A DNA stretch of 64,000 nucleotides, taken from Thermoplasma sp. Kam2015. GTDB lineage: Archaea; Thermoplasmatota; Thermoplasmata; Thermoplasmatales; Thermoplasmataceae. The position numbers and the translations under genes are program-made. Below the pieces are notes generated by a model that was not told where the DNA came from, ran no database searches, and saw nothing but the letters and a program-made list of their open reading frames with translations. Within the stretch, counting starts at the first letter, position 1; each line of letters starts with the position of its first letter. Positions 9,538 to 18,193 of this stretch are shown here, piece after piece. The stretch is taken from positions 124,001 to 188,000 of the forward strand of contig NZ_QJSM01000020.1 in NCBI RefSeq assembly GCF_003205235.1, read 5' to 3'.

Positions 9538-11349
9538 TTAAAGCTTATCATACCCCATAATCGCATCTTTTCTTATCCTATCTATAACATCCTTTATGTG
9601 CTGTCCCGTCTGCTGATCTTCGAAGAACAGATCTATCCCGCGAATTCCTCTTGTCATAAGAGTATAGTAACGGTTTCTTATCAGTGTCATCGCAACATCA
9701 TTGTCTTTTTTGGCCATTCTTTTCAGCGAATAATTATTGCCTATAGTATCAGTTATTGCGTCTGCGTTGATCTTCCAATTGTTGTTTCTCCAGACAAGAT
9801 CCCTGCCCCATACAAGCCCGATGTAATCTGCTTCGAACCCTTGGGCGCCATATACCGAGGCGCAGTACTTCAGAGGGTCTAGTTCACCCCTCCAATATCT
9901 TGGATATTCTGTCTTTTCATCCATAAGCCAATAAATATCTAGACCTGAATTTTTATACAAATCGAAGTTGGACGGGAGAGGGTACCCGATACGTCTGTTC
10001 TGAACGCTGGTCGGATTTTTCTTATCTCCTTTGGATTCTGTGAATGCACAAAGTAGTCCTATCTTGTTTCCATCAGTATGTTTTTTTCTCAGATCTTCGA
10101 TAAGATTCGATATGTGGTCGAACATATTGATCTCATAGTTCAGAGTATCAGGCGGCTTCTCATTCCATAGTATATGACGCACAAGCTGCAGATAGTTTCT
10201 CGAAATCCTGAACGAACCGGTGAGATGCATCTCGGTTGTGTTCGTGCAGTACCGCCTGAAGTTCTCTTGAGTCCCCGCTTCGTCCCCAATGAGTATCTGT
10301 GAATCATCGTAGAAGTAGACCTTAACATTTGACCTGGATTGCGTCGTCCTGATGACATCCTGAGTCATCCTCTGCGCCTCGTCGTAGATTATCAGATCCA
10401 TATTGCTGTATCTGGAAGCATCGAAATTCCGTTCTCCTATACCCACTCCTCTTCCTGTTGAATAGTACTGTATGAGGGAACTTATGTTAACGCTGCCGGC
10501 ATTAAGATTAAGAACCTGCCGCATGGTGTTCAGGAGCCTGTTGTTCCTGTATGCAAGCAATGCTTTGTATCCATTTTTAATGGCATCGAGGAGAAGCTGA
10601 AGGGCTAACAGCGTTTTCCCGGAACCGCTCTCACCTTTTATCAGAAATGTTTTATTTTCCCCGTTTTTGAGTGCATCTTGCACTTTGTGCATGATCATGG
10701 CCTGCTCCTCGCTCAGGCCATAGCCCTTTGACAAAAGCGTTAAGGAAGCGTTCCTGATGATACTGTTACCATTCTTTATTATTATATCTATGAGATCATC
10801 GCTTATGGTGAATCTTCCAGTGACTATTGTGTCAACATCATCGTTTCCTCCGGGCTTACCAATACTTCTTATTTCATGTATAAGATCCTCTTCGCTATAC
10901 GCTATTCTACAGGAATTAGACTTATACTCAGGATGATTGTACATATACAGAATCCCCGTGTAATTGACAATCTTTCCAGAGGTATGGAAAAACTTCATCT
11001 TTGAAACGTAATTATTCAGTTGATAGCATGGGTCTATGTGATAAGCATTATCAGCCAGAACGACCATATCGCTTATTCGTTTAACGTTTCTCCATCCTTT
11101 GACCTCCACAATGATCGCATTCCTCGTGTCAACTGCGATGAGATCTGCGCGATCGAGCCCAAAGAGAGGGACTTCAACGAGGATTGGATAATCCAGCTTC
11201 ATCTCTATTATATTCTTTCCTAAAAAAGTCCAAGCGCTCTTCTCTTCAGGTGACGGTTCATCTCCATAATAGCGGATAATCGCCTTACTGAGATCGCTTA
11301 CCATATCCTCGGGCTTGTCATATTGATTGATAAGAAGGGGAAGGCTCAT
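9538..11349 (-). CDS. Nuclease-helicase fusion (DUF2075-type ATPase with PD-(D/E)xK domain)
   Basis: 603 residues. The N-terminal region carries a restriction-type nuclease signature, D69 followed by E82-x-K84 (RADLIAVD...IIVEVKGW). The central part is a P-loop helicase of the DUF2075/Schlafen-like group: Walker A GESGSGKT at 239-246 and Walker B IIYDEAQ with D323/E324. The C-terminal part ends in a motif like helicase motif VI (YYTLMTRGIRG). Such fusions are common in defence or DNA-repair loci. It sits beside a toxin-antitoxin pair and a TnpB remnant, which favours defence, but this is inference. A TATA-like element lies about 24 nt before the ATG. Confidence 0.75.
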   Translation of the reverse strand: MSLPLLINQYDKPEDMVSDLSKAIIRYYGDEPSPEEKSAWTFLGKNIIEMKLDYPILVEVPLFGLDRADLIAVDTRNAIIVEVKGWRNVKRISDMVVLADNAYHIDPCYQLNNYVSKMKFFHTSGKIVNYTGILYMYNHPEYKSNSCRIAYSEEDLIHEIRSIGKPGGNDDVDTIVTGRFTISDDLIDIIIKNGNSIIRNASLTLLSKGYGLSEEQAMIMHKVQDALKNGENKTFLIKGESGSGKTLLALQLLLDAIKNGYKALLAYRNNRLLNTMRQVLNLNAGSVNISSLIQYYSTGRGVGIGERNFDASRYSNMDLIIYDEAQRMTQDVIRTTQSRSNVKVYFYDDSQILIGDEAGTQENFRRYCTNTTEMHLTGSFRISRNYLQLVRHILWNEKPPDTLNYEINMFDHISNLIEDLRKKHTDGNKIGLLCAFTESKGDKKNPTSVQNRRIGYPLPSNFDLYKNSGLDIYWLMDEKTEYPRYWRGELDPLKYCASVYGAQGFEADYIGLVWGRDLVWRNNNWKINADAITDTIGNNYSLKRMAKKDNDVAMTLIRNRYYTLMTRGIRGIDLFFEDQQTGQHIKDVIDRIRKDAIMGYDKL

Positions 11350-13288: not shown

Positions 13289-13951
13289 TCACTGCCTCAC
13301 GATCAGCTTTGCGGCAAGCTGGAAGAGTGATATGGAATGTATCCAGACCCTCCCAGGGCCTCGCATGTGGGCAAAGAACAGACCCTCACCTTCCAGACCA
13401 CCGAGTATCATCGTTCGAAGACCACCTATACGCTCTACATTGTACTGAACGGAGTCGTCGAAAGCAAGCACATGGCTGAGCTCGACATTTATCTCGTCAC
13501 CAGGGCCAAGATCCTTTTCTATAACCTGCCCATGGCCGTGTAGAAATATGGATCCGCTTCCGCTGAAATGCTCAAGGAACAGACCCTCGCCACCGAGAAG
13601 CCCCTGCCATATACCTGCGAACTTAGTCGAATACTGAATTCCTGAATCCATGCATAGAAACGCATTGAACTCTGCGATGATACCATTTCCTTTCAGATCG
13701 ATCCGGTGTATCTTTCCGGGCAAAAAACCTGCAGAGGCTATCTCACCAGGTCCATCGACCTTCAGAAGAAAAACGGCGGAACCGCCAAGCATGTGCGAAA
13801 AAACACCTCGGAGTCCTCCAGCTCTGACATCAAGCCTTGAGGATCGATCCTTGTATATCAAATGGCCCGGTTCAACATAAACTGATTCACCATCGGAAAG
13901 CTTTGCCTTCAGATACTGAACATCTGTACCCTGAATCTCATAATCTACCAT
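13289..13951 (-). CDS. AIM24/TIGR00266-family protein
   Basis: 220 residues of repeated glycine-rich beta hairpins typical of the AIM24 family (LLGGEGLFLEHFSGSGSIFL and LGGLEGEGLFFAHMRGPG). Members are widespread trimeric beta-prism proteins whose function is not settled; mitochondrial AIM24 affects membrane organisation. A TATA-like TTTAATAATT about 27 nt upstream supports a leaderless start at 13951. Monocistronic. Confidence 0.85.
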   Translation of the reverse strand: MVDYEIQGTDVQYLKAKLSDGESVYVEPGHLIYKDRSSRLDVRAGGLRGVFSHMLGGSAVFLLKVDGPGEIASAGFLPGKIHRIDLKGNGIIAEFNAFLCMDSGIQYSTKFAGIWQGLLGGEGLFLEHFSGSGSIFLHGHGQVIEKDLGPGDEINVELSHVLAFDDSVQYNVERIGGLRTMILGGLEGEGLFFAHMRGPGRVWIHSISLFQLAAKLIVRQ

Positions 13952-14025: not shown

Positions 14026-17000
14026 TCACAGCCCGTAAGCTATGAGCAGTGTATCAAGATAGTAATTCGCCAGATCCACTGTCATGTTGAACGCATTGAA
14101 CGATCCGATGCCGACGAAATCATTCCATCCCTGTCCAAGGTAGCCGCTTCCCACCATGTTTGGATAGGGCTGCACGTAATCCACCATGTAGTACGCGGGC
14201 AGACCGAATTCGTTTCCATATCCGAGATCGTAGAGCGCGGGTTGTATCCATCCGAAGTATCCAACAGATCCATCAGCGTACACGAATGCTGATTCTATAT
14301 CTGCAAATATCCCAGCGGATATTGGAGTGGCAAAACTTGTCCCTCCAGCAACACCAAAGTAATGCTTGAATGCGAAGACCATCTTAGCTGCCGGCATGGC
14401 AATATCAGGCTGACCCCGGTTGGTGAACGTTGATGGTACAACTATCAGCTCCGAGCTCTGATATGTTGGCCTAGCGAAGAAGAAACTGTTACCTCCTCCT
14501 GATCCGACAGGGCCACCATACCAGCTGAATTCAGGCTGATACCATGCGTACTGTCCGACGATGTATCCTGACTGGTTAAGAACTGGATATACGCCTCCAA
14601 CGGACACAATGTATTCCGATGCCATGACTGTTAGATAGTAAATGCTGTGGCTGTCAGCTGATCCAAGGAATATTGTCGTACCCTCTGCTGCTGCCTGCAG
14701 CCCTATTAAGTTGTATATCTGAGCGAATCCAGCATCATGGTGGAACTGTAATTCTGCCCAGCTACCAGATATTATCTGAGGATGTATTACATTCAGCATG
14801 TAGTAGATCTCAAGGTTTATAGCATTGTCACCTATTCCCGTCAAATTGAAGGGCTGCATCACATCGTAGATGGTGGCATTTGGCGCCATGGCTCCAGACC
14901 ACTCAACATCAAGATCCGCCTCAACACCCTCTGGATATGGGTTTTTTCCATTGGGTGTAAGATTGACAAAGACGACCTGCGGATTGTGTATTCCATACTC
15001 ATCCCAGAACATGGAGATCGCGCTCATATTTGCTGATTCGCCGACGCCCAGTATTCCTATCTTGATACCGTGGCCTGTGAATCCCATATTCTCAAGCCCT
15101 GTAACGTTATAGAATTCCGCGAGGTGAACCGGCGTAAGGAGACTGCTAGAACCGTTTATACCGCTGGTTGGGACCAATGCTGTATTCGATATCTCTGTCT
15201 TGACTTCCTGCCTATTTTTAACGCTCAATAGGGCTTCGCTTGAATAGCTCAGGCCGTAGACATGCATTATGAGGCCGGAGAACTGCGCCGGTATATATGG
15301 ATTGGCAGTATTGGTCATGAATACCGCACCGCTGCCCCCCGGATACGTGAACTCGTAGTTGAACAATACCGTACCGAAGACCCTCTCAAACATTCCAACC
15401 GTTCCATGAAGCACTATGACGAGAGGAGCATAACTGTATGACCAGACCTTGAAGCCCATATTGGAATAATATGCTTCCACCTGCATGATCTGAGACTCCG
15501 ATGGATAATAATGCGCCATGAATTCCTGAGGCGTGAGATAGTCATGGAAATACGGACTCATGGGAGAATTCACAGCGGATACGAACTGTTCAAGTTCGCT
15601 GAGGTTTGTCAGGTTGAGATAAAGCGTCACGTTTATGACATCATCTGGATTGACTGGCCCAAGATTGAGTAGATACCGCTGGAAATACGGAGAGGTCATA
15701 AGATAAGGTACATTTCCATTCAGTGTGACTGAATTGGCCGGCTTCAGGTCTATGAGATTGAGCGGTTCATAGTCCCCGCCGTATTCGATCATCCCATCAT
15801 CATTGTACGGAACAGTTCCATTGAAGTTATACCAGAAGTTACCTCCCTGGTAATTTCCACCCACTATACTGCCAGTAAGAATCTGCCCATCAAACATATG
15901 AACGTTGGTGGCCGGCTGCACTGTGATGTTCCACATGTTAGTATACATGGCGGGATTTCCACTGTATATGCTGATGGATGGGCTTATGGCAGTGATCTCC
16001 GTGGAGAAGAAATTATTGTATATGGTGTTGTTTGAAGAGTATACGGCAAGCCCCAGAGGTTCACCCCAGAGATTCCATGCCTGCTCAAGCTCCGCATTGG
16101 CCAGCTTGGGCGAGTTCACAAAGTAGTTGCCCCATACCGTATTATTTGACCCTCCATATATCAATGCAGAGGAATCCATGGACATGAAGACATTGGACGA
16201 GATGAGTGAGTCCGAAGTATTCCAGAAGACCACATTGGCCAATGGCTCTCCGCTGTCATAGGCCGTGAACCAGCCAGTTATCTGGCTGTCTCTGAGGATG
16301 AAATGCGAGGATTGGAATATCCAGTAACCAAGATAATTGTACGGAATCATTCCCTCGAAGAGCGCATATTCCTGGAATATGCCCTGATACAGCACCGGTA
16401 ATGTCGGCATGCTTGAAGCCATCACATAGGCCGAAGTATTCATGAGCATGACGCCTGCAAACTGTGGGTATGAGTAATCGTTTATCTCTCCAAAGAGCGG
16501 GCTAATGTATCCATATTCATTGTTGAAGAGAACGTATGGATCAGATACAGAACCATCACCAGACATGGATATGTTCCTGATCTGGTTATTGTTAACAGCC
16601 ATCAGCGGAGTGTACAGACCGGCTGACATGTCCAGTGGAAGTACAAATGTGTTGGATGAAGACAGCATCTGTGCCTGTGCGCGGTGATCGCTGAGCAGGG
16701 CCAGAGCCGCATATTCTCCGGCTGGGAGCCAGAAGCTGTATGAACCTGAAGCCGTCAGCGGAACATAGCCTGCCTGACTGTAATTCACGACGTTACCTGG
16801 GCTTATGAACAGGAACGCATTGCTTGGACTCACATCTCCCGTGAAATGATCCATAACCTTAGCTGAAGAAACATTCCACATGCCATACAGAAGCGAGGGG
16901 CCTGTGCTTAGGATTGCCTGATCCTGAGAATTCCATGCTACGGCAGCACCAACGGACGTTTCTCCAGTATCTGTTCCGAAATCGAATGCATTTGGAACGT

Positions 17001-18042
17001 TAGCATACGATTTGGGAACAGCGGGCTTACCTGGCGGTGATGGTGGTGGAGGTGGTGCGGGAGGATGCATCGGATTGGTCGCAGAGATGTATTTCAGCTG
17101 CATCATCCCGTTAATATCGGTGAACGTCGTCGTCGATCCTCCGCCTGGGCCTCCCATCATTATCTCAGCATCATAGAGCAGTCCGGCCGGATTAAGCTGG
17201 GTTCCGCTGACCCTGAAATAGGAAGGTGGCGCTTTGTAAGCTGGCGGCATGCCATAAGTGGAGTTAAATGTCACGCGATCATATGTGCCACTAACACCTA
17301 TCGTCGGTATGGAATAGTTGAAATAGAAGACGTTATTGCCATCGATCTCTGAGGTGTTCATATAGAGCAAGAGGGTGAAGGGTGTCGGAAGATAGAATGT
17401 TGGACCAAGCGCTATGTGAACTCCTGGATACGGATATATGGTTCCGGTTGAGTTGAGTATCGCGTTGCTTGTCACCTCTGCACCTGGACTGCTGAAATTC
17501 CAGATATTATCAACGAAGCTTATTTCATGCGTTCTGACGGAGTATGTAGCCACGTTCTGAGTCCAGAAGGTATAGGATGAATTTCCGAACAGCGTCGTGT
17601 TTGCGGTAACGGTGTTGAGTTGGAATGTGAGAGATGAAGGTGCATCATCTGCAAGATTGAAGACGCTAAGATTGTTAATATCAATAACCGCCTCAAAGCT
17701 GGATGCATAATAATTGTTTCCAATCAGTGTACCTGACATGTTTTCAAGCCCGAAGAAACCTATACCCATCGGGGCAGGTGATTGCGTGTACAGTGGTTCA
17801 ACAGTTCCGTTCTGATACAGAAATCTGTGGTACTTTGCCGGAAGATAAAGATAATTATTCACTGGTTTCAGCATGCTGGTGGGTAACTGTTTCACCGGCT
17901 CTGTTTTGCCTGGGCTGCTGGCTATTCTATGCGTCGATATATTCGATGCGTCGTTGAAGGCAAAATTCACACCCAGGAAACCTGTTACAGCAATGACAGC
18001 CACAATGACTGTCAGCAGAAATATCCTTCTTTGGTTCATCAT
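14026..18042 (-). CDS. Secreted thermopsin-sedolisin double acid protease
   Basis: 1338 residues. A signal or anchor helix spans about 7-29. A thermopsin (peptidase A5)-like region, about 60-300, starts GIGFFGLENMSGTLIG. A Pro-rich linker (326-340) follows. Residues about 500-720 contain beta-helix-like turns (NNTVWGNYF, NNTIYNNFF). A pro-kumamolisin domain lies at about 775-935. The C-terminal S53 catalytic domain carries E1041 and D1045 (VEADLDVEW), the oxyanion Asp D1130 (GSADSHS) and the nucleophile S1236 (GGTSFATP). All S53 catalytic residues are present. The many N-x-S/T sequons fit an exported glycoprotein, so it is likely an extracellular acid protease that feeds peptide uptake. A TATA-like TATTTATC lies about 28 nt before the start. 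Confidence 0.85.
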   Translation of the reverse strand: MMNQRRIFLLTVIVAVIAVTGFLGVNFAFNDASNISTHRIASSPGKTEPVKQLPTSMLKPVNNYLYLPAKYHRFLYQNGTVEPLYTQSPAPMGIGFFGLENMSGTLIGNNYYASSFEAVIDINNLSVFNLADDAPSSLTFQLNTVTANTTLFGNSSYTFWTQNVATYSVRTHEISFVDNIWNFSSPGAEVTSNAILNSTGTIYPYPGVHIALGPTFYLPTPFTLLLYMNTSEIDGNNVFYFNYSIPTIGVSGTYDRVTFNSTYGMPPAYKAPPSYFRVSGTQLNPAGLLYDAEIMMGGPGGGSTTTFTDINGMMQLKYISATNPMHPPAPPPPPSPPGKPAVPKSYANVPNAFDFGTDTGETSVGAAVAWNSQDQAILSTGPSLLYGMWNVSSAKVMDHFTGDVSPSNAFLFISPGNVVNYSQAGYVPLTASGSYSFWLPAGEYAALALLSDHRAQAQMLSSSNTFVLPLDMSAGLYTPLMAVNNNQIRNISMSGDGSVSDPYVLFNNEYGYISPLFGEINDYSYPQFAGVMLMNTSAYVMASSMPTLPVLYQGIFQEYALFEGMIPYNYLGYWIFQSSHFILRDSQITGWFTAYDSGEPLANVVFWNTSDSLISSNVFMSMDSSALIYGGSNNTVWGNYFVNSPKLANAELEQAWNLWGEPLGLAVYSSNNTIYNNFFSTEITAISPSISIYSGNPAMYTNMWNITVQPATNVHMFDGQILTGSIVGGNYQGGNFWYNFNGTVPYNDDGMIEYGGDYEPLNLIDLKPANSVTLNGNVPYLMTSPYFQRYLLNLGPVNPDDVINVTLYLNLTNLSELEQFVSAVNSPMSPYFHDYLTPQEFMAHYYPSESQIMQVEAYYSNMGFKVWSYSYAPLVIVLHGTVGMFERVFGTVLFNYEFTYPGGSGAVFMTNTANPYIPAQFSGLIMHVYGLSYSSEALLSVKNRQEVKTEISNTALVPTSGINGSSSLLTPVHLAEFYNVTGLENMGFTGHGIKIGILGVGESANMSAISMFWDEYGIHNPQVVFVNLTPNGKNPYPEGVEADLDVEWSGAMAPNATIYDVMQPFNLTGIGDNAINLEIYYMLNVIHPQIISGSWAELQFHHDAGFAQIYNLIGLQAAAEGTTIFLGSADSHSIYYLTVMASEYIVSVGGVYPVLNQSGYIVGQYAWYQPEFSWYGGPVGSGGGNSFFFARPTYQSSELIVVPSTFTNRGQPDIAMPAAKMVFAFKHYFGVAGGTSFATPISAGIFADIESAFVYADGSVGYFGWIQPALYDLGYGNEFGLPAYYMVDYVQPYPNMVGSGYLGQGWNDFVGIGSFNAFNMTVDLANYYLDTLLIAYGL

Positions 18043-18193
18043 TCAAAAACATGGCATATACTTGATAAATATTATGAAAAAATGATATGTAACTTTTATA
18101 CGTATCAGAGTTAAGATCGTGATATAATTCAATTTGTTGTATCGGTGTCTGACATGGAACTATTTTGTATGACGCTGTCATGTCACAGCATCC

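Follow-up and report, generated by a model that had tools for sequence, protein, structure and literature searches.

Domain organization of the A5-S53 chain

The window analyzed here, 64,000 nucleotides of Thermoplasma sp. Kam2015, carries on its minus strand one coding frame (positions 14026-18042) for a protein of 1338 amino acids, stop codon included in the coordinates, in which a thermopsin (peptidase family A5) module, a beta-helix region and a sedolisin (peptidase family S53) are joined; its extent is supported by Pfam matches and by full-length orthologs. The protein begins with a signal peptide or signal-anchor (residues 1-31, 17950-18042, minus strand, as is every feature of the frame), with a hydrophobic peak at residues 7-25, and a hydropathy scan predicts no other membrane segment in the chimera. 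Upstream of the start codon, reading of the sequence alone picks out a possible archaeal TATA box, TATAAAAG (18093-18100, minus strand). The same neighbours, a PLD-like gene, AIM24, a methyltransferase and a DUF2004 gene, recur in four Thermoplasma genomes; the AIM24 family protein (13289-13951, minus strand, E=3e-57) lies directly downstream on the same strand and stands beside the chimera in four Thermoplasma genomes. A further minus-strand gene of the window (9538-11349) has a Schlafen group 3 helicase domain (E=6e-63) and a weak NERD nuclease match, and may be a defence gene.

The thermopsin similarity that an initial annotation had proposed for the N-terminal third is borne out by a domain search, with the Pfam family PF05317 (Thermopsin) matching residues 81-323 (17074-17802) at E=4.6e-56 (5e-56 rounded; score 190.6 bits, cut-off 25), and by the family alignment. 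Q141, N143, W160, Q162, N179, W181, N182, D255, D291 and E293 are each found in 43 of 43 members of the wider family. The A5 candidate residues (motifs DN-WN, YD, DAE and DTG/E) are present in the chimera as D178, D255, D291 and D358/E361, and its QDV position is occupied by Asn, like that of most A5 members reported in PMC3842238. A Pro-rich hinge, also described earlier, does exist at residues 326-348 (16999-17067), where it is disordered and variable, but its supposed place between the thermopsin-like region and the beta-helix did not hold: since the second part of the conserved A5 core (D354 to D358-T-G-E361, 16960-16983; motif from PMC3842238) comes after it, the hinge is a disordered insertion within the A5 module. 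The A5 domain and its conserved residues are shared with Sulfolobus acidocaldarius thermopsin and with SsMTP-1, the latter resembling the chimera also in having a repeat region after the A5 domain; compared with both, the chimera adds the S53 half and the Pro-rich insertion before the DTGE motif.

The region that follows (residues 365-765, 15748-16950) is beta-rich, and the beta-helix-like repeats noticed there at the outset agree with two kinds of evidence. NosD/Beta_helix profiles match relatives (NosD in 14/43 family members, best E=4.4e-6; E=0.27 for the chimera itself), and the helix part of an AlphaFold2 model of residues 60-769 (pLDDT 89, pTM 0.87) is matched by Foldseek to pectin-lyase-type helices, namely polygalacturonase and pectate lyase. 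Both marks of a NosD-type right-handed beta-helix, a profile match and a parallel beta-helix fold, are thus found.

The C-terminal half carries a sedolisin with its own prodomain, as first suggested. The activation domain (Pro-kuma_activ, PF09286, E=2.4e-30) occupies residues 793-932 (15247-15666), a linker modelled partly at low confidence spans residues 936-985 (15088-15237) and is the likely region of activation cleavage, and the catalytic domain extends over residues ~965-1338 (14029-15150). The complete S53 site named in the annotation stands at its predicted residues: E1041 and D1045 (14908-14922), the oxyanion-hole D1130 (14653-14655) and the nucleophile S1236 within GGTS (14335-14337) align with kumamolisin E78, D82, D164 and S278, and are conserved in 43/43, 43/43, 43/43 and 42/43 members of the wider family. 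The chain therefore has two marks of family S53, the catalytic Glu/Asp/Ser with an oxyanion Asp and an N-terminal Pro-kumamolisin activation domain. Kumamolisin (PDB 1t1e) is matched with E=4e-24 by phmmer and E=8e-104 by profile. The top PDB fold match of an AlphaFold2 model of residues 770-1338 (pLDDT 85, pTM 0.90, 43 sequences) is intact pro-kumamolisin (Foldseek, E=1.6e-32), followed by the precursor of tripeptidyl-peptidase 1.

Kumamolisin and the chimera thus share a prodomain and catalytic domain, the E/D/D/S site and the fold, at 24% identity in the fold alignment; the chimera differs in its A5 and beta-helix N-terminus and in its eroded calcium Asp positions. The C-terminal calcium site of kumamolisin we take to consist of D316, I317, G334, G336 and D338. 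In the chimera the Gly region is retained; all members of the fusion clade have Asn at the position of D338, and the position of D316 varies (D/N/E). The Asp positions of this site (residues 1271-1338, window 14029-14230) are eroded in the S53 subclade with the active site invariant, so that the stability or activity of the S53 half may differ.

A different label was attached to this half in 2008, when a T. acidophilum protein was named Thermopsin-Subt (PMC2605481), and a weak match to Peptidase_S8 (PF00082, an S53 clan relative) at residues 1049-1253 points the same way. We give next to no credence to a subtilisin (S8) identity and reject it: the Asp-His-Ser triad is not there, Glu and Asp replacing His/Asp, while the kumamolisin prodomain, the Glu-Asp/Asp/Ser site and the GGTS motif are, and S53 is the best match by sequence and by fold with subtilisins far behind. 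On these comparisons, the C-terminal half is reassigned from the 'Subt' label to S53.

Distribution, selection and origin of the fusion

A whole-genome protein search recovered the A5-S53 frame in all five Thermoplasma genomes searched, the other four copies being 72-97% identical to that of the window. Three further genomes (G071, G104 and G106) carry it at 60-61% identity, and two more (G102 and G103) have copies ended by contig ends, at 59-62% identity. Among the matches listed, 10 genomes from 4 genera thus carry a fusion frame; 8 of these frames are full-length and 2 are ended by contig ends. A scan of contigs with six peptide patterns found the same chain in Thermoplasma sp. KMA_Bin19, Thermoplasma sp. 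FL and Thermogymnomonas acidicola JCM 13583. In the draft of the last (L003/L159) the chain is split into several frames, reflecting either sequencing indels or a decaying gene.

Nothing was found in favor of an assembly join or frame artefact, interrupted frames being confined to that draft (L003). We reject this explanation and regard its chance as negligible, since the frame recurs at 60-97% identity in independent and complete genomes, three of which (G098, G101 and G104) consist of a single contig, and since orthologs are found in other Thermoplasma genomes and in three other genera. The claim that both families lie in one 1338-residue frame, and not in two genes joined by assembly, accordingly stands.

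Purifying selection acts strongly on both halves. All tested key residues of A5 and S53 are identical in the 8/8 full-length orthologs. For the closest pair (G000 and G100), A5 has a dN/dS of 0.03 and the stretch that follows the hinge, beta-helix included, one of 0.04, and the prodomain and S53 each reach 0.07; for G071 and G104 the values are 0.04-0.06, and most of the remaining ortholog pairs have saturated synonymous sites. The hinge evolves much faster than the folded domains and the 936-985 linker somewhat faster. In the alignment, the residues that connect helix and prodomain (755-800) show good conservation.

The S53 tree groups the fusion members into a single clade (support 100/99), with stand-alone S53 proteins outside it, and the A5-beta-helix tree does likewise (SH-aLRT 99), with a chain from genome G114 as sister; long branches elsewhere in the trees make other placements unsure. 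Both halves also exist as separate genes in Thermoplasmata: stand-alone A5-beta-helix proteins of ~760 residues (~50% identity to the corresponding half) are found in many genera, and stand-alone S53 proteins of ~600-785 residues (50-58% identity) in G003, G070, G072, G073 and G135. Given a single fusion clade for each half and the stand-alone forms of both, the simplest reading of these sequences is a single fusion in an ancestor within the Thermoplasmatales. No independent A5-S53 fusion was seen among the matches listed from 117 order-level genomes, nor among the S53-half matches listed from 300 class-level genomes; rare cases may have escaped these listings and the six-pattern contig scan. 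On L139, ~480 residues precede the S53 prodomain of one protein, but this candidate for a further fusion was rejected for want of a thermopsin match. Two oddities were seen along the way. The G071 fusion (L098) is nearly identical to that of G104 (L099), which belongs to another genus, and three other members of the G071 genus have stand-alone S53, a similarity that may reflect horizontal transfer or a mixed bin. In addition, one frame of 1559 residues in G072 (C161; L090:778-5457) has two separate thermopsin matches.

Beyond the fusion clade, the nearest relative by A5 is the sister chain of G114 (L152:3671-7699, plus strand). Its C-terminus likewise holds a hydrolase, but this is a PNGase A-like amidase (PF12222, E=2.5e-12) where the chimera has S53. 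The substitution suggests that the A5-beta-helix unit could serve as a carrier for exchangeable C-terminal hydrolases.

A proposed zymogen and its alternatives

In the reading that we favor, and to which we give a probability of about 0.6, the chain is an exported zymogen serving extracellular protein digestion. An A5-beta-helix module would have been joined to a complete pro-sedolisin in a Thermoplasmatales ancestor. The product, going by its N-terminal hydrophobic segment, would be exported and would fold as a zymogen; in the acid outside the cell, to judge from S53 biology, the S53 domain would cleave itself within the linker at residues 936-985. Sedolisins are known to have a large prosegment and linker removed at low pH (PMC6278154). 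A pepstatin-insensitive acid endopeptidase of ~40 kDa would be released (residues 961-1338, computed mass 40.9 kDa), and an A5-beta-helix-prodomain remnant of ~99 kDa would be left over (residues 60-960, computed mass 99 kDa); because the cut would fall in the linker between prodomain and catalytic domain, the A5 product would still carry the sedolisin prodomain. The A5 half, with its conserved residues all kept, would probably add a second acid protease activity, and the beta-helix might act as a spacer or as a substrate- or surface-binding part. The two activities together would serve to break down extracellular protein for nutrition. T. volcanium has been reported, as cited in PMC3958906, to have a pepstatin-insensitive acid protease, and the S53 half is a candidate for this enzyme.

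The part played by the A5 half can also be read differently. The thermopsin-family protein Saci1846 is an S-layer anchor (PMC12207459), the catalytic residues of A5 are unproven (PMC3842238) and were given as unknown in the 2013 family review, and the A5-beta-helix unit of G114 bears its PNGase A-like domain as a carrier module would. It is conceivable, then, that only the sedolisin is enzymatic, and that the A5 beta-sandwich and the beta-helix are non-catalytic and anchor, space or target the C-terminal hydrolase. We consider this possible but doubtful, in view of the retention of all widely conserved acidic and amide residues of A5, a dN/dS for A5 as low as that for S53, and the purification of SsMTP-1, a related A5 protein, as an acid protease (PMC3958906). 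Both domains could also be active on a chain that is never cleaved, giving one tethered bifunctional enzyme, which would suit the persistence of the joined chain across genera and the good conservation of residues 755-800. This we hold to be quite improbable, as sedolisin activation takes away the prosegment linker at low pH, the prodomain here is complete, and the linker evolves fast.

Earlier record and implications for thermopsin

The combination of an A5 module with a sedolisin half is not unprecedented, having been tabulated in a 2008 survey as 'Thermopsin-Subt NP_394205.1' of T. acidophilum, one S8 architecture (PMC2605481). The chimera, which has the same domain order and comes from the same genus, is almost certainly an ortholog of that protein. 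The survey entered it as one S8 case and gave no prodomain, S53 assignment, relatives or mechanism for it. In the literature searched we found no paper that discusses thermopsin and sedolisin together and no functional test of the chain, and an NCBIfam search returned no model that covers it. What the present analysis adds is the S53 assignment and the prodomain, the distribution of the chain, the single clade for each half, the conservation of residues and the selection acting on them, together with the PNGase A sister chain and a hint, from the fold of A5, toward glutamic peptidases.

This hint comes from the model of residues 60-769. A sequence search of solved structures found no relative of the A5-beta-helix half. 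By fold, Foldseek ranks HC7, a mucinase, first (8pn5, E=1.9e-7, with a TM of 0.34 to the target), with further matches to ulvan lyase, neprosin (7zu8, E=2.7e-3) and lectin-like sandwiches; the TM-scores of the HC7 and neprosin matches are low and the rmsd large for a two-domain query, and they compare overall fold, not residues. HC7 is a di-glutamate enzyme (PMC13003899) and neprosin a glutamate peptidase (PMC9343461), and the two matches hint that thermopsin may be a glutamic-peptidase-like sandwich; glutamic peptidases are marked by a lectin-like beta-sandwich that bears a catalytic Glu pair or Gln/Glu. Profile and sequence searches found no sequence link from A5 to neprosin or to peptidase A4. 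A bolder proposal, in which our confidence is low, is that A5 would be a beta-sandwich carboxyl-dyad peptidase, not a pepsin-like aspartic one, and distant kin of the glutamic peptidases (neprosin, HC7 and eqolisins), with acidic and amide residues that are invariant (Q141, Q162 and D178; D255, D291 and E293) lining the cleft.

The fusion of two peptidase families unrelated in sequence and mechanism, selectively kept across genera, is unusual, and it makes the chimera a clear case in which the joint secretion of two acid-stable proteases can be tested. The long-open mechanism of thermopsin gains a handle as well, for which the model and the conserved residues name specific candidates. If the carboxyl-dyad proposal is true, the chain would couple two acid-adapted enzymes that both work through carboxyl groups. 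The Thermoplasmatales would then use the A5-beta-helix unit as a general carrier for different acid hydrolases, S53 in the fusion clade and PNGase A in G114.
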